Shown here: in pieces, positions 52,317-64,000 of the stretch
Position numbering within the stretch: position 1 is the stretch's first letter
How the letters are laid out: each line of letters starts with the position of its first letter
Source: an uncultured Clostridia bacterium
GTDB lineage: Bacteria > Bacillota > Clostridia > Oscillospirales > Acutalibacteraceae
NCBI GenBank assembly: GCA_945874765.1
Contig: CAMCHQ010000002.1
Span: 124,001 to 188,000, forward strand
Direction of reading: 5' to 3'
DNA length: 64,000 bases
Made by a program: the position numbers and the translations under genes
Notes under the pieces: model-generated
Seen by the model: only the letters and a program-made list of their open reading frames with translations
Database searches by the model: none
Told to the model about the DNA's origin: nothing

Positions 52317-54488
52317 ATGATGAGCCAAGAAGCACAGGTCACAAAACAAGGGTTACTTGATTTATTAAAAACGGCAAATGGAGATCAATTTGTCGTTCCA
52401 GTATATCAAAGAAATTATACTTGGAGGGCAAATAACGAAGTAAAACAATTTCTTTCTGATTTGGATGCTGTAGTCGGTGGAGAGTATCCAAAGCATTTTT
52501 TAGGCGTAATTATTTTTCTAAGTAAAACGATTAGTCTTGGCGTGAATGAAATGTCAATTATTGATGGTCAGCAAAGATTAACAACAATATTTTTAATACT
52601 CTATGCAGCTAAAGCTATATACTTGGAACAAGGTGATACTTATAGTGCCGATATTATTGATTCAAGTTATTTAATAAATTCACATGGACCTAAATATAGA
52701 TTAAAACCGTTGGTTGCTGATGATAATGTATATAAATGTATTGTAGAAAATAAGTTCGATGAAATTGAAAATAAACAGTCGAAAATATATTTAAACTATT
52801 TGGCAATTAAAGAACATTTGAATGGATTGATTTTGAAAGGGTATAAGCTTGATGATATCGTTATGGCTTTAGACAAGCTTTATCTTGTAAGTATTCCGAT
52901 TAGTGAAAATGATAATGCACAAAAAATATTCGAAAGCATTAATGCAACTGGCTCTAAATTAACAGCTGCAGATTTGATTAGAAATTTTTTGTTAATGAAT
53001 CTTAATAGTGATATACAAGATGATTATTACTCAAGATATTGGAAAAAGATAGAAGATAATATTTCTACTGATTCAAAAAAATTAGAAATGTTTTTTAGAA
53101 TGTTTCTTGCTATAAAAACATATAATTTAGTTGCTAAAAGTAATGTGTATAGAGGTTTTGTTGAATGGGTTAAAAATAATTTAGTGGACACTAAAACGCT
53201 GTTTGAAGATCTTGTTGAATATGCTGGAATTTACAATTCATTATGCAATAAAGATATTAATGCATTTGGGACTGATTTGAAATATGCTTTAATTGATTTT
53301 AGAAAACTTAATTCTGATTTACCACTACCGTTAGTGATGGAATTATTTAAACAATATTTGAATGGAAACATTACCGAAAACAGTATTGCTAAGTTAATAG
53401 ATTCGATTAATGCTTATTTGATAAGACGAAGTATTTGCGATTTGGACTCAAATAATGTAACACGCCTGTTTCCTACAATTCTCAAAAAAGTTATGGATAA
53501 GTGTAATGGTGATTTTTCAAATGTAGTGGGTGTTTTGAACCAAGAAATGGTTGGCAATAATGCCAATACAAGTGGCAGCTATATGCCTACTGATATTCAA
53601 ATGCATGAAATGTTACATAATGCTAGTGTTTATAAGCGACCTGCTCTAAAAATTATTTTAAACAGACTTGAAACAAATAATAATCCTGCACCAGTTGATC
53701 TTTCGGTTTTAAGCATTGAACATCTTATGCCACAAACTCCAACAACTGAATGGTTAGAAGAGTTAGATGTTGATGAGGATGCATATTATGCAAATTTAAA
53801 TAGACTTGGAAATTTAACATTAGCTACAAAACATGACAATAGTAAAATGGGAAATTCCGTTTGGGAATATAAAAACAAAGTGTTAAAAGATACTTTACAT
53901 TTAAAGCTAAATACCGAATTAGTTTCAATTCCTCAATGGAATATTGAATGTATAGAAAAAAGAACGAAAGAATTGATTGATAGAATTTGTGATTTATACC
54001 CTTATCCGAAAGTTAAAATTACAGATGGCAATTTAGAAAATGAAATTGTGGGTGAAAACGAGTCTTTAGACATTGTATCCGATTTGTTATTTGATCATTC
54101 GAATTTTATTGAAGTGGAAAAAAATAGAATTTATGTTTCAAACGATAATAAAGAAGGATATGTTTTATATACTTCTAAGGCGTATAAGCAGGGTGATCGA
54201 GATAAATATTGGTTCGGATATAGAATAAGTAGGCTTGAAAAAATAAAAAACACTGAGAAAAAATATTTAATTTTAGTATGTAGAAATAGTAAAACTTTAA
54301 TTTTAAAATTTCCTAAAGAATTCATTGATGGTATTTGTGATCGTTTAAATTCTACAGAGGACGAAAATGGAATTGTTAAACATTATCACATTGTTTTATT
54401 CAATGATAAAAATAAGTGCACTCTGTTGTTGTCAAAGCCAAATTTATTTGAAATAGATATTTCGAAATATATAATTGACGAAATTTAA
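52317..54488 (+). CDS. DUF262-DUF1524 (GmrSD-like) protein, probable modification-dependent restriction nuclease
   Basis: A 723-residue single-chain protein. Residues 25-240 are DUF262 (ParB-like NTPase/nuclease fold) with YQRNYTW at 30-36 and IIDGQQRLTT at 81-90. DUF1524 with an HNH-type site follows: IEHLMPQ with E468-H469, then NRLGNLTL near 494. A C-terminal domain of about 130 residues (from 590) is unassigned. GmrSD proteins cleave phage DNA with modified cytosine. Either the ATG at 52317 or the one at 52320 may be used, after AGGAGG. Base composition is strongly AT-rich, unlike the chromosome. Confidence 0.85.
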   Translation: MMSQEAQVTKQGLLDLLKTANGDQFVVPVYQRNYTWRANNEVKQFLSDLDAVVGGEYPKHFLGVIIFLSKTISLGVNEMSIIDGQQRLTTIFLILYAAKAIYLEQGDTYSADIIDSSYLINSHGPKYRLKPLVADDNVYKCIVENKFDEIENKQSKIYLNYLAIKEHLNGLILKGYKLDDIVMALDKLYLVSIPISENDNAQKIFESINATGSKLTAADLIRNFLLMNLNSDIQDDYYSRYWKKIEDNISTDSKKLEMFFRMFLAIKTYNLVAKSNVYRGFVEWVKNNLVDTKTLFEDLVEYAGIYNSLCNKDINAFGTDLKYALIDFRKLNSDLPLPLVMELFKQYLNGNITENSIAKLIDSINAYLIRRSICDLDSNNVTRLFPTILKKVMDKCNGDFSNVVGVLNQEMVGNNANTSGSYMPTDIQMHEMLHNASVYKRPALKIILNRLETNNNPAPVDLSVLSIEHLMPQTPTTEWLEELDVDEDAYYANLNRLGNLTLATKHDNSKMGNSVWEYKNKVLKDTLHLKLNTELVSIPQWNIECIEKRTKELIDRICDLYPYPKVKITDGNLENEIVGENESLDIVSDLLFDHSNFIEVEKNRIYVSNDNKEGYVLYTSKAYKQGDRDKYWFGYRISRLEKIKNTEKKYLILVCRNSKTLILKFPKEFIDGICDRLNSTEDENGIVKHYHIVLFNDKNKCTLLLSKPNLFEIDISKYIIDEI

Positions 54489-54596: not shown

Positions 54597-54615
54597 ATAG
54601 ATTGAGGTGATTAAA

Positions 54616-56652
54616 ATGTCGACATCTTTGCAAGTTAATTTTAGAGGTTTGCTTAATGAAATAACACTCCCTGAATATAAGTCATTGTGGCCTTTATTTG
54701 AAGCAATTGTAAACTCAATACAATCTATAAATGATTCGGTTGGAGTGGAAAAAGGAAACATTCAAATTAAAGCCACTAGAATAGGACAAGAAAAGCTTAA
54801 AGACTTTACTAATTTGCCATATAATGATTTTGAAATTATCGATAACGGCGCAGGTTTTACAAGTCAAAACTATAGTTCTTTTTTAGAAGCATATTCGGAA
54901 TTAAAAATAACTAAAGGCTGTAAAGGGCTTGGAAGATTTTTGTGGCTAAAAGCTTTTGACAGAGTTGAAATAGAAAGTGTTTTTTATGAAAACAATCAAT
55001 ATTTCAAAAGATTTTTCGAATTCAATGAAAGAGATTTTATTAAACCTGAAAACAATGTTGTGCCAACAACCCAGCAGAATATATATACTAAGGTTAGATT
55101 GATAGGATTCAAGAATAAATATCAAAAGAATTGTAGTGTGAATATTGAGCCTATAGCTAAAAAGATAATTGAACATTGCATGATGTATTTTATATCTAAT
55201 TCTTGTCCACAGATAATTTTAAGTGATGAAGATGAAAAAATTGATATAAATGATTATTTTAATTCAAAAGTCAAAGATTCATTGCATCGTGATGATTTTG
55301 AATTATCTAATCATATTTTTTCAATTTATCATATTCAAATGAATGAAAGCGCATCGAAACACGAATTGCATTTATGTGCTAGTAACAGAGAAGTTGAGTC
55401 TATTTCTTTATCAAAGAAAATACCTAATTTAAATACAAGACTTACAGATGAGCAAGGAAACGAGTATTATTATGTTGGATATCTTACTGGTGATTATCTT
55501 GATAGCGCTGTTAACACAAATAGAACTGCTTTTTACATTGATGAAGATAGTAACTTAACAAATACAATATTAAAAAACGATATTATTAATAACTCGTTAA
55601 ATTTTATTAAAATATATTTAGGAGAAGATTTAAATAAGGTTAAAGAAAAGAAAAAGGAACAAATTGATCGATATGTACGGTCTTGTAAGCCCCAGTATAA
55701 ATTTTTACTTAATCAAAAACCAGAAGTATATGATGATATTCCTAGCGGATTAAAAAATGATGATTTAGATATTGAACTACACAAACAAACTCAAAAGTGG
55801 GAAAAAGAGATCAAAGAGCTTGGAAAAGCTATTGAACAAAAAAATAGAGAAACATACGATAGCGTTGCAGATTTTGATAAAATATTTAAGGATTATTGCT
55901 CTGGTATAACAAATTTAAATAAAGCCAGCCTATCAGAATATATTATTAGAAGAAAAACGATACTAGATCTTTTTTCTAAAGCTTTGGAAATGGACGAAAA
56001 TGATAAATATAAAAAAGAGGATATTATTCATTCGCTTATTTGTCCAATGCAACACACATCAGATAATATACCGTTTAATGAAATGAATTTATGGATAATT
56101 GATGAAAAGCTTTCATATCATAAATTTTTAGCATCAGACACTAAGTTGAAATCTATACCTGTAATTAATTCAAAATCTGAAGACCGGGTAGATATTGCTA
56201 TTTTTGACCAAGCAATATCATATTCTAGTGAAAAAGACCATTTTAATAGTATCTCTATTATTGAACTCAAACGGCCTGGACGAAATGATTATTCTGCCGG
56301 CGGAAAAGATCGTGATCCAATAGAACAAGTGTTAAGATATGTTAAACAAATACGAGAAGGTAAAGCAACATTAGCCAATGGAAGAGATTTTGGAAATGTC
56401 GAAAATACTCCGTTTTATTGTTATATTGTTGCTGATCTAACAAGCACTCTGCGAGATAGAGCAGAAACATCAGGTTACACAAAAACTCCTGACGGTGAAG
56501 GTTATTATGGATATAATCCTAATAGGAATGCTTTTGTCGAGATTATTTCATATTCAAAATTGTTAAGTGATGCTCAAAAGAGTAATCAAGTATTATTTGA
56601 TAAGTTATTTAGTCCTCAAGCATCCGAAGTAACTGAGCTTACCAATAGTTAA
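54616..56652 (+). CDS. GHKL-type ATPase fused to a PD-(D/E)XK nuclease domain, candidate anti-phage effector
   Basis: A 678-residue protein. The N-terminal GHKL (Hsp90/MutL-type) ATPase has the N box in LFEAIVNSIQS (E29, N33), the G1 box IIDNGAGF (76-81) and the G2 loop KGCKGLGRF (100-108). A helical middle runs to about 500. The C-terminal domain has RVDIAIF with D526 and IIELKRP with E550 and K552, the PD-ExK nuclease signature. I start at ATG 54616, seven bases after GAGGTG. It is bounded by its own promoter and terminator, so it may be a stand-alone system or an accessory to the next operon. Confidence 0.8.
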   Translation: MSTSLQVNFRGLLNEITLPEYKSLWPLFEAIVNSIQSINDSVGVEKGNIQIKATRIGQEKLKDFTNLPYNDFEIIDNGAGFTSQNYSSFLEAYSELKITKGCKGLGRFLWLKAFDRVEIESVFYENNQYFKRFFEFNERDFIKPENNVVPTTQQNIYTKVRLIGFKNKYQKNCSVNIEPIAKKIIEHCMMYFISNSCPQIILSDEDEKIDINDYFNSKVKDSLHRDDFELSNHIFSIYHIQMNESASKHELHLCASNREVESISLSKKIPNLNTRLTDEQGNEYYYVGYLTGDYLDSAVNTNRTAFYIDEDSNLTNTILKNDIINNSLNFIKIYLGEDLNKVKEKKKEQIDRYVRSCKPQYKFLLNQKPEVYDDIPSGLKNDDLDIELHKQTQKWEKEIKELGKAIEQKNRETYDSVADFDKIFKDYCSGITNLNKASLSEYIIRRKTILDLFSKALEMDENDKYKKEDIIHSLICPMQHTSDNIPFNEMNLWIIDEKLSYHKFLASDTKLKSIPVINSKSEDRVDIAIFDQAISYSSEKDHFNSISIIELKRPGRNDYSAGGKDRDPIEQVLRYVKQIREGKATLANGRDFGNVENTPFYCYIVADLTSTLRDRAETSGYTKTPDGEGYYGYNPNRNAFVEIISYSKLLSDAQKSNQVLFDKLFSPQASEVTELTNS

Positions 56653-56737
56653 TTGATAGTTTGCAAAATTCATATAATAAAGTATTACATGTTGAATTTA
56701 TAGAATGTGTGTAAAATAAGAATATCACAGTATTTTT

Positions 56738-56766
56738 AAGCACCTCTTTGGGGGTGCTTATTTTGT
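56738..56766 (+). terminator. Terminator after the GHKL ATPase-nuclease gene
   Basis: AAGCACC (56738-56744) with GGTGCTT (56753-56759), then ATTTTG. Confidence 0.82.
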
Positions 56767-56891: not shown

Positions 56892-56900
56892 TGATATAAT
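56892..56900 (+). promoter_or_regulatory. Extended -10 promoter of the MORC-Z1-DUF4420-AIPR operon
   Basis: TGA-TATAAT with TATAAT at 56895-56900, the same ATGATATAAT form as in the repeat R2 promoters. No consensus -35. The ATG at 56899 lies inside the box, so it cannot start translation from this promoter. Confidence 0.65.
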
Positions 56901-56934
56901 GGACATAGAGTTTAATTCGTTTAAGGAGCTTGTT

Positions 56935-58416
56935 ATGCCAATTTATAGAGAAAATCAACCTACAGCTGATATATTAATGACATCAATGAGATCTATGGGC
57001 TACTCTTTCGAGTCGGCTATTGCAGATATCATTGATAATAGTATTTCTGCTAATGCAACAAAAATTGAATTAAAATATCCAGCTGATCCAAGTGAAGCAT
57101 TTGTAGCAATTTGTGATAATGGTGTTGGTATGACTTCATCCGAACTTTACAATGCCATGAAATATGGAAGCAGACATCACAGCGATGAAAGAGAAGAATT
57201 AGATTTAGGTCGATTTGGTTTGGGACTGAAATCTGCATCTCTTTCTCAATGCAGGAAACTTACTGTTATAAGCAAGAAAGACGGTGAAATTTCTTCTTAT
57301 GTTTGGAGCTTGGATCATGTTGAAAAGCAAAAGAATTGGGAAATTGCACAATATTCAAATGACGAAATCAAAGAAATTAAATTTAATGATTACTTAAGTG
57401 AGTTAGAACACGGAACCGTTGTTCTTTGGGAAGACTTTGATGTAATTGAAAAATCATCTGGACAAGTATATGCAGCATTATCCAAGTATCAACAATCAAC
57501 GGCAGATTATATTGCATTGATTTTCCATAGATTTATTAACAGAGATAGAAATAAAATCCAAATTTATTCGAATAATTATTTGATTGAAGGTTTAGATCCA
57601 TTTCTTGAAAATCATCCTAAAACAGATCCAAGAAGAAAAATTAATCTTCCTATAATGGATTCTACCGGAGTAGAGCGTATGGTTTATGTCCAGCCATATG
57701 TTTTACCGTTTCAAAAGGATTTATCAGCTGAAGACAAAAGACTTTCTGGCGGAATAGAAAACTATAGATCCAAGCAAGGTTTTTATGTTTATAGAAACGA
57801 AAGACTTATCATTTGGGGAACATGGTTTGGAAGACATAGAGACGAATTAACAAAATATGCTAGAGTAAAAGTTGATATTCCAAATACATTAGATGATATT
57901 TGGGGCATAGATATAAAAAAGCAAAATGCAACAATTCCTGGAGTAATAAAGAAGCAGCTTACAAAAGCAGTTGATGAAGCGATGGATTTGGCTGTAAAAA
58001 AGCAAAAACACAGGGGAAGAATTGAAAAAATTGATGATGAGATAGACTACATATGGGATAGAATTCAATGTCGTGACAATGTATTTACATATAAAATCAA
58101 TAGGGACTCAAAAATTTTTGATCTTATAAAGGGCCAAATATCAGATTCTGCTTGGAACCAACTTGATATGGTACTTGAAGAGATTGAAAATGCAGTCCCT
58201 TATCAACAAATCTATATTGACAAATCGCAAAACAAAGTTGATGAAGAAATATCTAAAGAAAGAATGGCTGAAATTCAAGCAAAAGCAGAAATGCTGATTA
58301 AAATGTCAGTTTCAATGTGGAATACAACAAGGGAAAACGCAATTGACATTCTTTTAAAATCAGAACCTTTTAACCAATTTCCACAACTTAAAGATATTTT
58401 ATATAATGAGAGGTAG
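56935..58416 (+). CDS. MORC-like GHKL ATPase of a restriction-type defence operon
   Basis: A 493-residue ATPase of the MORC/MutL-like GHKL class. The N box is IADIIDNSISA (D31, N35), the G1 box DNGVGM (61-66) and the G2 loop GRFGLGLKSAS (92-102). A transducer-like domain follows and a helical tail ends the protein. These ATPases were predicted by comparative genomics to serve in prokaryotic restriction-like systems with Z1 and nuclease partners. ATG 56935 follows AAGGAG by six bases. The Z1 gene starts 4 bases after its stop. The cell target is inferred, not shown. Confidence 0.85.
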   Translation: MPIYRENQPTADILMTSMRSMGYSFESAIADIIDNSISANATKIELKYPADPSEAFVAICDNGVGMTSSELYNAMKYGSRHHSDEREELDLGRFGLGLKSASLSQCRKLTVISKKDGEISSYVWSLDHVEKQKNWEIAQYSNDEIKEIKFNDYLSELEHGTVVLWEDFDVIEKSSGQVYAALSKYQQSTADYIALIFHRFINRDRNKIQIYSNNYLIEGLDPFLENHPKTDPRRKINLPIMDSTGVERMVYVQPYVLPFQKDLSAEDKRLSGGIENYRSKQGFYVYRNERLIIWGTWFGRHRDELTKYARVKVDIPNTLDDIWGIDIKKQNATIPGVIKKQLTKAVDEAMDLAVKKQKHRGRIEKIDDEIDYIWDRIQCRDNVFTYKINRDSKIFDLIKGQISDSAWNQLDMVLEEIENAVPYQQIYIDKSQNKVDEEISKERMAEIQAKAEMLIKMSVSMWNTTRENAIDILLKSEPFNQFPQLKDILYNER

Positions 58417-58420
58417 TTAT

Positions 58421-61222
58421 ATGAATACAGACTTAATGAAAGTGCAAAAACTCGTGTCATTTGTTAATGGCCTAATTGGAATTAAAGAAGGCGAACTGAC
58501 GGATGATTTATTAGATCAGTACTTAAAGACCGCTATAAATCTGTCAAATCTAGATTTTACAGATTTGGAAATCGCTGCTGCAAAAAACGATCTTACATAT
58601 TTTCATCAAATTAAATGTACTCCGGGGGAAAGTCTTTTAGATGACTATGATGATGTTGAGTGGTACAAGAATATTAAAGATACCATTGAGCCAAAGTTCT
58701 GGAGTAGATATAGTAATTATTTGATTGTTGAAAAGCATTTTTCTCCAAATGTTGTATCCACTCTTGGAAACGAAACTTTAGACAGGGATATTATGAACTA
58801 TTTGGGAAATCCAAATTCGGATTATAATTTCTTTAAAAGGGGCTTAATTATAGGCGATGTACAATCTGGTAAAACCTCAACTTATATTGGATTAATGTGC
58901 AAAGCAGCCGATGCCGGATATAAGGTTTTCATTCTTCTTACTGGTACAATTGAAGGCTTGAGAAAGCAAACTCAAGAAAGAGTAGAAGAAGGATTCATAG
59001 GAATTGATATGAGTTCCGATAAATCAAATAAGCGTGTTGGTGTAGGATTGGACAATAAGCCTATATTTGCTGTATCTCTTACATCTAGAAAAGGAGATTT
59101 CACTGGAAAAAGTGACCAAATTGCAATGTCACTCCAAAACAATGATGCCGTAGTATTTGTTTTAAAAAAGAATTCAAGTGTTCTTTCTAAATTAATCGAG
59201 TGGCTAAAAACCACAGCAGCCAATAGATTAACCGGTAAAATTGATATACCAATGCTGTTAATTGATGACGAAGCAGACAACGCTTCTATTAATACTAGTA
59301 AATCAAAAGAAGATCCAAGTAAAATCAATAAGTTAATTAGAGAGTTGGCAAGTCTGTTTTCAAAATCAAACTATGTTGGCTTTACAGCTACACCCTACGC
59401 TAATGTTTTTATTGATCCTATTACAACCGAGGATATGTTGAATCATGATTTGTTTCCTGAAAACTTTATTTATGCTCTTCCAACTCCAAATAATTATATA
59501 GGTCCTCAACAAACATTTAATAAAAAGGGCAAATATTACAACCAGCTAATATTTATCAAAGATGCAGGTCGAGTTGAAGAGGACGGTTGGCCATTCTATT
59601 TTAAGCATAAAAAAGATTGGGAAGATGCACTTCCAGAAAGCCTAACAGATGCTATATATACTTTTTATTTAGCCAATGCAATCAGAGATATTAGAGGGCA
59701 TCTTTCTTCGCATAGATCAATGCTTATAAATATATCACGATTTGTTAGGATTCAATATTATATTAAAGATAAAGTATCAGAAATTCATGATGCTGCATAC
59801 AGAGCTGTAAAATTCAATTTGAATCCAAATGATTTTGAAAATTCGATGAAAGATCCTATAATAAACAGGATATATAAAAATTGGGTAAAACATTACTCTG
59901 ATGTTGAATTTATCGCTTGGGAGGATATTGCAAAAGTTCTTTTTAATGCAATTAAAGAAATACAAATCAAGGTTGTAAACAGTACTCAAAAAAATGACAA
60001 GTTAGTATATACAGATGATTTCCCAATTCGTGTAATTGCCATTGGTGGTCTTGCTCTATCTCGAGGTCTAACGCTTGAAGGACTATTAACCAGTTATTTC
60101 TTTAGAAATACTGCAACATATGATGTCTTAATGCAAATGGGTAGATGGTTTGGATACAGAAAAGGTTATGATGATCTGTTTAGAATATGGACACATGAGG
60201 ATTCGGCAAGATGGTATGCGGAAATTGCAGAGGCAACAGATATATTAAAACAAGATATGCAGGATATGAGAGATAAAGGGATGTCCCCTAAAGATTTTGG
60301 TATAAGGGTTAGAGATGATTGTACTGAGCTTCAAATAACTGCGAGAAATAAAATGAGAAGTGCAACTGATGAGTATGAATTCTCGGGTTATGCCGGAAAG
60401 ATAGTAGAAACCCCATATCTGTTTTCTGATGCTACAAAAAACAGACGCAATTTTAGCATAATTGAAGAATTCGTTCAAGATTCAATAATGGCGGGAAAAC
60501 AATTTGAAAAGATGCAGGGCTCTGGTGAGCATTATGTTCTTCAAAATGTTGAAAAAGGTGAAATACTTAAATTACTATGTTCATTAAATATTTCAAGATA
60601 TAACCACGAGTTTTATAAAGATCAAATTATCGATTATATTTCTTCAGAAAGCGATAAATATATTGATATGTGGGATGTTGCATTTATGGATGGCAACGAT
60701 GATAGAAACACAATTGATCTATGTGGTAGAAAAATCAAAAAAGTATCAAGAAATAATTGTTCTATTGAAGGTGAAAGATTGAAAATAGGACAAAGAGGAA
60801 AACTTGGTGGCCCTACTGATGGTCAAATCGGGATTGTAGATTTCAATAATAAAAAAGCATCAAGAATAGTGGAAGATGCAATTAGTGATTTTAAAGCACT
60901 CTACAAGCAAGAGCATTATGGAGATGAGTTTAAAAAAGGTCGTCAATATCCGTCTGACACTTGGTTTAAGTTTATCAAAGATAGAAAGCCGTTACTAATT
61001 GTATATCTAATAGATGTAAATTGTGAAAATAGTAAAGCTATCAATGCATATCGTGATGAAATGATAGATAGAAAACGTAACATTGATATTCCATCTGTAG
61101 GTGTTGCGATTGGTTTCCCTCAAAACGATAATGTTCATACTTCAAAGAAAAAGTATAAAGCCAATTTGTACTATAATTACTTTGAAAGAGAAGAAGATGA
61201 GTTAGAAGCAGAAGAGGAATAA
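58421..61222 (+). CDS. Z1-domain superfamily II helicase-like ATPase
   Basis: A 933-residue protein. The Walker A loop is GDVQSGKTS (145-153), Walker B is LLIDDEADNAS (DDEAD at 282-286), the third motif is FTATPYANVF (321-330), and the Z1 domain is marked by GGLALSRGLTLEGLL and QMGRWFGYRKGY, which carries the arginine finger-like residues. Family proteins accompany MORC ATPases in predicted defence operons and are thought to act on DNA. Start chosen at ATG 58421 with AGAGGTAG upstream. The next gene begins 1 base after the stop. Confidence 0.9.
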   Translation: MNTDLMKVQKLVSFVNGLIGIKEGELTDDLLDQYLKTAINLSNLDFTDLEIAAAKNDLTYFHQIKCTPGESLLDDYDDVEWYKNIKDTIEPKFWSRYSNYLIVEKHFSPNVVSTLGNETLDRDIMNYLGNPNSDYNFFKRGLIIGDVQSGKTSTYIGLMCKAADAGYKVFILLTGTIEGLRKQTQERVEEGFIGIDMSSDKSNKRVGVGLDNKPIFAVSLTSRKGDFTGKSDQIAMSLQNNDAVVFVLKKNSSVLSKLIEWLKTTAANRLTGKIDIPMLLIDDEADNASINTSKSKEDPSKINKLIRELASLFSKSNYVGFTATPYANVFIDPITTEDMLNHDLFPENFIYALPTPNNYIGPQQTFNKKGKYYNQLIFIKDAGRVEEDGWPFYFKHKKDWEDALPESLTDAIYTFYLANAIRDIRGHLSSHRSMLINISRFVRIQYYIKDKVSEIHDAAYRAVKFNLNPNDFENSMKDPIINRIYKNWVKHYSDVEFIAWEDIAKVLFNAIKEIQIKVVNSTQKNDKLVYTDDFPIRVIAIGGLALSRGLTLEGLLTSYFFRNTATYDVLMQMGRWFGYRKGYDDLFRIWTHEDSARWYAEIAEATDILKQDMQDMRDKGMSPKDFGIRVRDDCTELQITARNKMRSATDEYEFSGYAGKIVETPYLFSDATKNRRNFSIIEEFVQDSIMAGKQFEKMQGSGEHYVLQNVEKGEILKLLCSLNISRYNHEFYKDQIIDYISSESDKYIDMWDVAFMDGNDDRNTIDLCGRKIKKVSRNNCSIEGERLKIGQRGKLGGPTDGQIGIVDFNNKKASRIVEDAISDFKALYKQEHYGDEFKKGRQYPSDTWFKFIKDRKPLLIVYLIDVNCENSKAINAYRDEMIDRKRNIDIPSVGVAIGFPQNDNVHTSKKKYKANLYYNYFEREEDELEAEEE

Positions 61223-61223
61223 T

Positions 61224-62147
61224 ATGAAAGCTATAAAAGAACACTTTGAAGAATTTAAAAATCCCTGCTATTTTTCAAGAGTTGATAACAATCACATTTT
61301 AGGATTGCATATTGGATTAGATGACAAGGGAAGAAAGTGCATAGAATTACGAACCAAAAAGTTTTCTGTAAGAAGAATAACCGGAACTAATGTTATTGAG
61401 GTTGGTCAATTCAAAAACAACAATTACTATAGTATTAGATTCACTTTAATAAATGATGAAATGTCTGGATTGTTTTATAAATTCTGCGAAGATTTAGTTG
61501 AAGAAACAAGAACTTTAAAACTTGAGGAAGAAGGATATCAAGCTGTAGTAGAAAGATACCTACAATGGAAAAGGATGTTTGTTTCGTCAAAAAAAGATTT
61601 GCTAACAGAAATACAAATCATGGGATTAATTGGTGAAATTCTTTTTTTAAAAGGAAATCTTGCTGAAAGAATCGGTCTCTCAAATGCATTGAAAAGTTGG
61701 AGTGGTCAAGAATTAACACACAAGGATTTCTCATATAAAGACTCTTGGTTTGAGTGTAAAGCGATTTCAAGAAGTACATTAACAGTCAAAATATCTTCAT
61801 TAGAACAACTCGATAGTAATGTTGATGGTGAGTTGGTTGTTTATTCACTTGAAAAAATGAGCGAGGTATATAACGGAATATCATTAAACAGTCTAATTTT
61901 AGATACCGCAAAATTGTTTGAAACCGCAGAAGAAAAAGAAGATTTTTTATCGAAAGTTGCACTTCAAGGATATGAATACAATACATATTATGACTCTTTT
62001 GTTTATGAGATTTCTTCTTTTCATAGATATTTGGTTAATGATGATTTCCCAAAATTAACTAGGAAACAAATCAACAAAGCCATTAGCAGCGCTTCATATG
62101 TTTTATCAATGCCTAAGATAGCTCCCTTTGAAATAAAAGAAAAGTAG
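61224..62147 (+). CDS. PD-(D/E)XK nuclease-fold protein, DUF4420 type
   Basis: A 307-residue protein. The nuclease core is predicted from E138 (GLIGEILFL), D173 and E177-x-K179 in YKDSWFECKAIS. This is the D-x3-E-x-K form of the fold. It is the probable DNA-cutting subunit of the operon. The Z1 stop and this start are separated by 1 base, and the AIPR gene begins 8 bases after its stop, so the products are made in a fixed ratio. Homologues occur next to Z1 and AIPR genes. Confidence 0.83.
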   Translation: MKAIKEHFEEFKNPCYFSRVDNNHILGLHIGLDDKGRKCIELRTKKFSVRRITGTNVIEVGQFKNNNYYSIRFTLINDEMSGLFYKFCEDLVEETRTLKLEEEGYQAVVERYLQWKRMFVSSKKDLLTEIQIMGLIGEILFLKGNLAERIGLSNALKSWSGQELTHKDFSYKDSWFECKAISRSTLTVKISSLEQLDSNVDGELVVYSLEKMSEVYNGISLNSLILDTAKLFETAEEKEDFLSKVALQGYEYNTYYDSFVYEISSFHRYLVNDDFPKLTRKQINKAISSASYVLSMPKIAPFEIKEK

Positions 62148-62155
62148 GTGTAATT

Positions 62156-64000
62156 ATGGATTTCAATGAATACCAAAAAGACTTTATAGAATCAATAAGA
62201 AACGAAGCTGCAATTAGTGAAACTGATGCAGAAGATGAATTCATTGATAGAACTTTAGACATACTTGCAGAGTTTGACGAAATACAAGACCCAATAAGAT
62301 TATATTTTGGCAAGACACGAAAAAATCAAGCTAAAATGCAAATTAATGGCTATGCTTTTGATGAAACAGATCACAGCTTAATCTTATTTATATCGGATTT
62401 TGAAAACTCATTAAATCCATCTAATTTAACTAGTACTCAAATTGATAAATTGTACTGGATGATGTACAACTATCTTGATGAGGTATATTATGGTGATATA
62501 TCTCAATATTGCGATGATTCAGATGATTGTCTTAAGCTTGGTAAACTTATAAAGAAAAGATTTGATGCGATGAATGATGATCCGAATCTTTTGCTGAAAA
62601 TAAAATTTTATATTCTTACTGATAAAAATATTGGTACAAGGTTATTAGATGCGGATTTATTAGGAAATGATCCGTTAAATAAAACTAAAAGAAAATCAAC
62701 TAAGACCAATAAAAAAATAAAAAAATCCGAGTTTGCAGGTAAGCCTTTAGAGATAAATATTTGGAATACTGAAAGATTTTACGAACTTGAAACATTAAAC
62801 AGTAATGAACCTATCAGCATTGATTTTAAAGAAGATTTTAACTATGAAGGAATCCCTTGCTTAAAAGGCAATATCGGAGAAAATTTAGGATATAATGCTT
62901 ATATAGCAATTATTCCGGGAAAATTGTTAGCAGATATATATATCGAGTATGGTAGTAAAGTATTAGAGGGAAATGTGCGCGCTTTTTTAGGTACGAATGC
63001 TAAAAAAGGTGTTAACAGAGGAATTAAAAACACAATTAATACTGAACCAACAAAGTTTTTTACATATAATAACGGCGTTGCGGCAACTGCTGCTGATATT
63101 GAGCTTGAAACAAAGAATGGAGAACTACTAATTACAAATGTTGTTGACCTTCAAATTATTAATGGTGGTCAAACTACTGCAACACTTGCAGAGGCAGTTT
63201 TAAAGAAATCCGAAAATATGGAGCTTAAAGGTATTTATGTTCCAATGAAGATTACCGTAATTGAAGATAGAGAAACAGAAGATGAAGACGGAGTTAGATT
63301 TTATGATAGTATGGTTCAAAACATTGCAAACTATGCTAACAGTCAAAATAAAGTAACTGCTGCCGATTTGTTTTCAAATGATCCATTTCATATTTGGATG
63401 GAAAAAATGTCTAAAAAGATTCTTGCTCCTGCGGTCAAGTATAATATCCCTACCGGATGGTATTATGAAAGATCAAGAAAAAAATATGTTAGAGAGCAAG
63501 AACAAGAGCTCAATAGAAACGGAAGAGATGCTTATAATCGATTTGGTAAGAAGTTCCCTAAAAAGCAAATTATAAATAAAGAACAACTTGCCATGTATCT
63601 TACCACAATTAAATGTAAACCGAATGTTGTTTCAAAAGGTAAGAACTGGGTTTTTAAAGAATTTGGAACACAAATAAAAAAAGAATACAGAGAAAATAAT
63701 GCGATTTTTAATGAATTCTATTTCAAAAAATGTGTTGCGGCCGCAATAGTTTTTAGAAGTGTCGATGGCTATTTGGAATCAAATAAAGATAGTGCAAAGA
63801 AACATACTGGCTTTTGGTACACGGCTGGTGGTTATAAAAGTGATATAGTTCCTTACTCTATTGCCAAAATATTATCAACAATTCCTTATGGATATGATAT
63901 TGATTGGGAAAAAATATGGCAAAATCAATCTATATCAAACGCATTTATGCACGAAATTGAAATTGTAACGAAAATGACAAATGATTTTATTTGTGATAGT
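62156..64000 (+). CDS. AIPR-family (abortive infection) protein, 3' truncated by the window edge
   Basis: The frame is open from ATG 62156, after AGGTG, to the last base, 615 codons. The AIPR family (PF10592) is recognised by FFTYNNGVAATA (NNG near residue 305) and LQIINGGQTTATL (near 335), with a conserved helical region after. A Lys-rich linker (KTKRKSTKTNKKIKKS) lies near 180-195. AIPR proteins are linked to phage resistance by abortive infection. It is the last visible gene of the MORC-Z1 operon. Its C terminus and any later genes lie beyond the window. Confidence 0.88.
   Translation, partial: MDFNEYQKDFIESIRNEAAISETDAEDEFIDRTLDILAEFDEIQDPIRLYFGKTRKNQAKMQINGYAFDETDHSLILFISDFENSLNPSNLTSTQIDKLYWMMYNYLDEVYYGDISQYCDDSDDCLKLGKLIKKRFDAMNDDPNLLLKIKFYILTDKNIGTRLLDADLLGNDPLNKTKRKSTKTNKKIKKSEFAGKPLEINIWNTERFYELETLNSNEPISIDFKEDFNYEGIPCLKGNIGENLGYNAYIAIIPGKLLADIYIEYGSKVLEGNVRAFLGTNAKKGVNRGIKNTINTEPTKFFTYNNGVAATAADIELETKNGELLITNVVDLQIINGGQTTATLAEAVLKKSENMELKGIYVPMKITVIEDRETEDEDGVRFYDSMVQNIANYANSQNKVTAADLFSNDPFHIWMEKMSKKILAPAVKYNIPTGWYYERSRKKYVREQEQELNRNGRDAYNRFGKKFPKKQIINKEQLAMYLTTIKCKPNVVSKGKNWVFKEFGTQIKKEYRENNAIFNEFYFKKCVAAAIVFRSVDGYLESNKDSAKKHTGFWYTAGGYKSDIVPYSIAKILSTIPYGYDIDWEKIWQNQSISNAFMHEIEIVTKMTNDFICDS

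Follow-up and report, generated by a model that had tools for sequence, protein, structure and literature searches.

A five-gene MORC, helicase, nuclease-like, AIPR and C5-methylase locus in a Clostridia genome: an example of a known predicted restriction-modification-like set

A run of MORC-type ATPase, helicase, nuclease-like and AIPR genes lies at the end of a 64,000-nucleotide stretch (the window) from an uncultured Clostridia bacterium, and the question that this locus raises is whether it is a defence operon that does without a DNA methyltransferase. The sequence-only reading had described four genes with no visible methylase, leaving two alternatives, that a methylase gene follows AIPR or that the set is a methylase-free variant. 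The window (bases 124001-188000 of a 207.5-kb contig) ends inside the operon. The operon was read on into the contig continuation, and the assembly (2,265,277 bases in 31 contigs, 99% complete) was searched. A complete C5-cytosine methylase gene was found on the same contig and strand, starting 78 bases past the end of the AIPR gene, which itself crosses the window end at 64000. The operon genes, with positions past 64000 given as window equivalents, are as follows.

56899..58416, + strand: MORC-type GHKL ATPase (MzaB-like), 505 amino acids; PF13589, MzaB and MORC structure matches
58406..61222, + strand: helicase gene (MzaC counterpart; the Z1 ATPase of the sequence-only reading); PF10593 and MzaC matches
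61224..62147, + strand: DUF4420 PD-(D/E)XK nuclease-like protein (MzaD-like), 307 amino acids; PF14390 match
62156 to 64423 (AIPR at L002:13157-15424), + strand: AIPR-family protein (MzaE-like), 755 amino acids in full; PF10592, PF22879 and MzaE matches
64502-65773 (L002:15503-16774), + strand: C5-cytosine methyltransferase, fifth operon gene, 423 amino acids; PF00145 and TIGR00675 matches

The methylase beyond the window end

The fifth gene product was identified by PF00145 (E 3.1e-51) and by TIGR00675 (dcm), above its cut-off, and it carries the FSGIGS, PCQ, ENV, QNRPR and GNSI motifs. This is the only PF00145 locus in the assembly, the two listed matches being two pieces of one frame, and no C5 methylase is encoded inside the 64-kb window. 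The description of four genes stands, but the methylase seemed to be lacking only because the window stops short of it. This false lead is now removed: a methylase does follow AIPR, the result that the reading itself had named as refuting. That the four genes act alone, with host DNA spared in some other way, agreed with the empty window and with the Escherichia coli MZA system, where a sigma-factor gene is present and no C5 methylase lies within 10 kb (2 records); with a complete methylase gene next to AIPR, it is refuted for the present locus and almost certainly wrong. Comparison with the C5 methylase of PDB 4dkj and 8c56, which we take to be M.MpeI with CpG specificity, aligned residues 4-410 of the 423 (E 2e-51), but the region separating motifs VIII and IX, the expected target recognition site, aligned poorly, so this likeness gives no target sequence for the methylase.

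The methylase could instead be an independent orphan gene that lies downstream by chance, since the 78-base gap is wider than those between the other operon genes and the best PADLOC profile for the protein is the "orphan methyltransferase" model. However, of the 10 close relatives, 8 have these five genes in this order and the remaining two are incomplete. In the 8 complete ones the gap between AIPR and methylase is only -26 to +1 bases, so that co-transcription and joint inheritance of the pair are probable there. We therefore consider a chance neighbour very unlikely, and the shared order also argues against a methylase-free variant.

Loci with the four genes, and the E. coli MZA system

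In a survey of loci outside E. coli, with two E. coli MZA records handled apart, all four genes were present in 26 of the 39 loci examined, and a C5 methylase was nearby in every one of the 26; counting the two methylase-less E. coli records, the figure becomes 26/28. Of these 26 loci, 16 have the methylase after AIPR and 10 have it ahead of the MORC gene, on either strand, and the expectation of a methylase ahead of the operon is thus not general. Eight of the relatives' methylases were checked against Pfam and the others were assigned by blastp or record annotation; those of L058, L061, L062 and L065 were recognized only by a methylase profile built from other loci together with motifs, and for the loci that seeded the profile, a match to it holds by construction. 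The PCQ motif is present in 26 of the 27 methylase open reading frames (ORFs) checked. The exception is the ORF of L055, where a restriction endonuclease gene also sits between methylase and AIPR, and dropping this locus leaves 25/25. In the flanks of L013 and L041 there are two methylase ORFs apiece.

The E. coli MZA genes mzaB, mzaC, mzaD and mzaE are one-to-one, same-order counterparts of the four window genes. Of 5,426 genomes, 55 gave a match to MZA; in the two records examined from among these, the sigma-factor gene mzaA stands ahead of mzaB-E, and neither annotation nor a profile search shows a C5 methylase out to 10 kb from the matched stretch. The present locus differs on both counts: neither of the two MzaA-type sigma factors had a relative at the operon locus (L002; blastp E <= 1e-4), which also speaks against a methylase-free variant, and among 41 loci such relatives occur only at L055, L069 and L070. 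MZA in the strict sense has a sigma-70 family mzaA before mzaB, and here the gene ahead of the mzaB counterpart gave no hit in Pfam. The window proteins also score far below the NCBIfam MZA equivalog cut-offs (MzaB 308 against 850 bits, MzaC 465 against 1500, MzaD 70 against 420, MzaE 257 against 1050). One of the E. coli loci, L070 (strain ES5), holds a tandem pair of MZA copies with an integrase gene, annotated as frameshifted, in between.

The gene set is already in print. The parts of Iyer, Abhiman and Aravind (2008; PMC2292703) used here describe, as a third type, operons of MORC, a distinct superfamily II helicase and a restriction endonuclease-fold (RE-fold) nuclease, and the assignment to this predicted restriction-modification family, with AIPR, was right. 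They also mention Vsr-type nucleases; the sequence-only reading had said that such a gene is present only sometimes, which fits, as a Vsr search of the present assembly found none. In the parts of Miller et al. (2022; PMC9523054) used here, the set is a putative "Type II" defence system, MZA is called validated, and mzaA is present in just a few Type II systems. Had the locus been a four-gene set without a methylase, it would likewise be no new category, because the E. coli MZA form exists and that paper treats both MZA and the rare mzaA.

Predicted proteins and mechanism

The MORC-type protein matched PF13589 (E 3.8e-37) and the MzaB profile (E 1.3e-78), and its N-terminus resembles the structures of MORC2, MORC3 and MORC4 (best E 7.5e-06). 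The acidic residue of the GHKL N-box is Asp in 29/29 MORC/MzaB-type proteins (profile E <= 1e-60), and Glu in the aligned MORC2 chain. The helicase gene product matched PF10593 (E 5.9e-75) and MzaC (E 2.6e-116); across 13 aligned homologues, 7 of 8 Walker A positions and the IDDEAD and QMGRWFGYR motifs are invariant. The nuclease-like protein matched PF14390 (E 6.9e-48), and E138, D168, E177 and K179 of its putative PD-(D/E)XK fold are unchanged in 13 aligned homologues. The AIPR protein matched PF10592 (E 7.3e-76), PF22879 (E 1.3e-26) and MzaE (E 5.1e-52), and the Pfam name of its N-terminal domain refers to abortive infection, a role that is family naming.

The locus is an ordinary case, a complete five-gene Clostridia example of a known predicted restriction-modification-like defence set. 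To judge from its sequence, it most likely encodes a restriction-modification-like system in which AIPR forms an accessory arm. Following the parts of PMC2292703 cited above, MORC would be a DNA-looping ATPase, the helicase a motor and the RE-fold protein a nuclease, and the methylase would act as in restriction-modification systems. Alternatively, the set may be an MZA-like abortive or sensing system whose methylase has a self-protecting or regulatory part and leaves the choice of the nuclease target to other factors; the system could even be triggered by methylation, following a modification-dependent (type IV) logic. The E. coli pairing of the four core genes with a sigma factor, the AIPR domain name and the N-box Asp, a possible sign of slow turnover and of a clamp-like sensor, are consistent with this, but a C5 methylase at all 26 survey loci, in varied position and strand as if host modification were needed, points the other way, and we regard such a system as unlikely. 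Another reading, rather improbable, is that the four core genes form a shared engine coupled to a C5 methylase here and to a sigma factor in E. coli MZA, with MORC as a slow clamp through its N-box Asp and the methylase mark as a signal and not as protection alone. Since E. coli MZA has the four shared core genes without a neighbouring methylase, the role of the methylase can be tested by adding or removing it.

Neighbouring genes

Between the operon and the gene ahead of it lies the following feature.

56737..56760, + strand: terminator-like hairpin, 10-pair stem and T-run; consensus match only

The gene before this hairpin (54607-56652, +) encodes a 681-amino-acid protein for which Pfam, PADLOC and NCBIfam gave nothing at E <= 1e-3, and which was matched in 5 of 291 class genomes, its own counted. 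By eye, its N-terminal part reads as a GHKL ATPase (EAIVNS, DNGAGF, GLGRF) and its C-terminal part carries a nuclease-like IIELKRP motif, so that the protein resembles the paraMORC3 family as presented in the parts of PMC2292703 used here. Just upstream, within the same low-GC stretch, is a GmrSD-type gene (52317-54488, +) whose product matched PF03235 and PF07510; among PADLOC models, Orf5 and HEC-06 come nearest to it. A helix-turn-helix gene at the operon locus was the best blastp match (E <= 1e-5) of no gene in 27 other loci. Downstream of the operon, at about 67.8-73.1 kb in window equivalents, are genes for a Fic-family protein (L003:3849-4934; PADLOC PDC-S72) and a RhuM-family protein (L003:8044-9084; PDC-S05), which suggests that a defence island may continue there.
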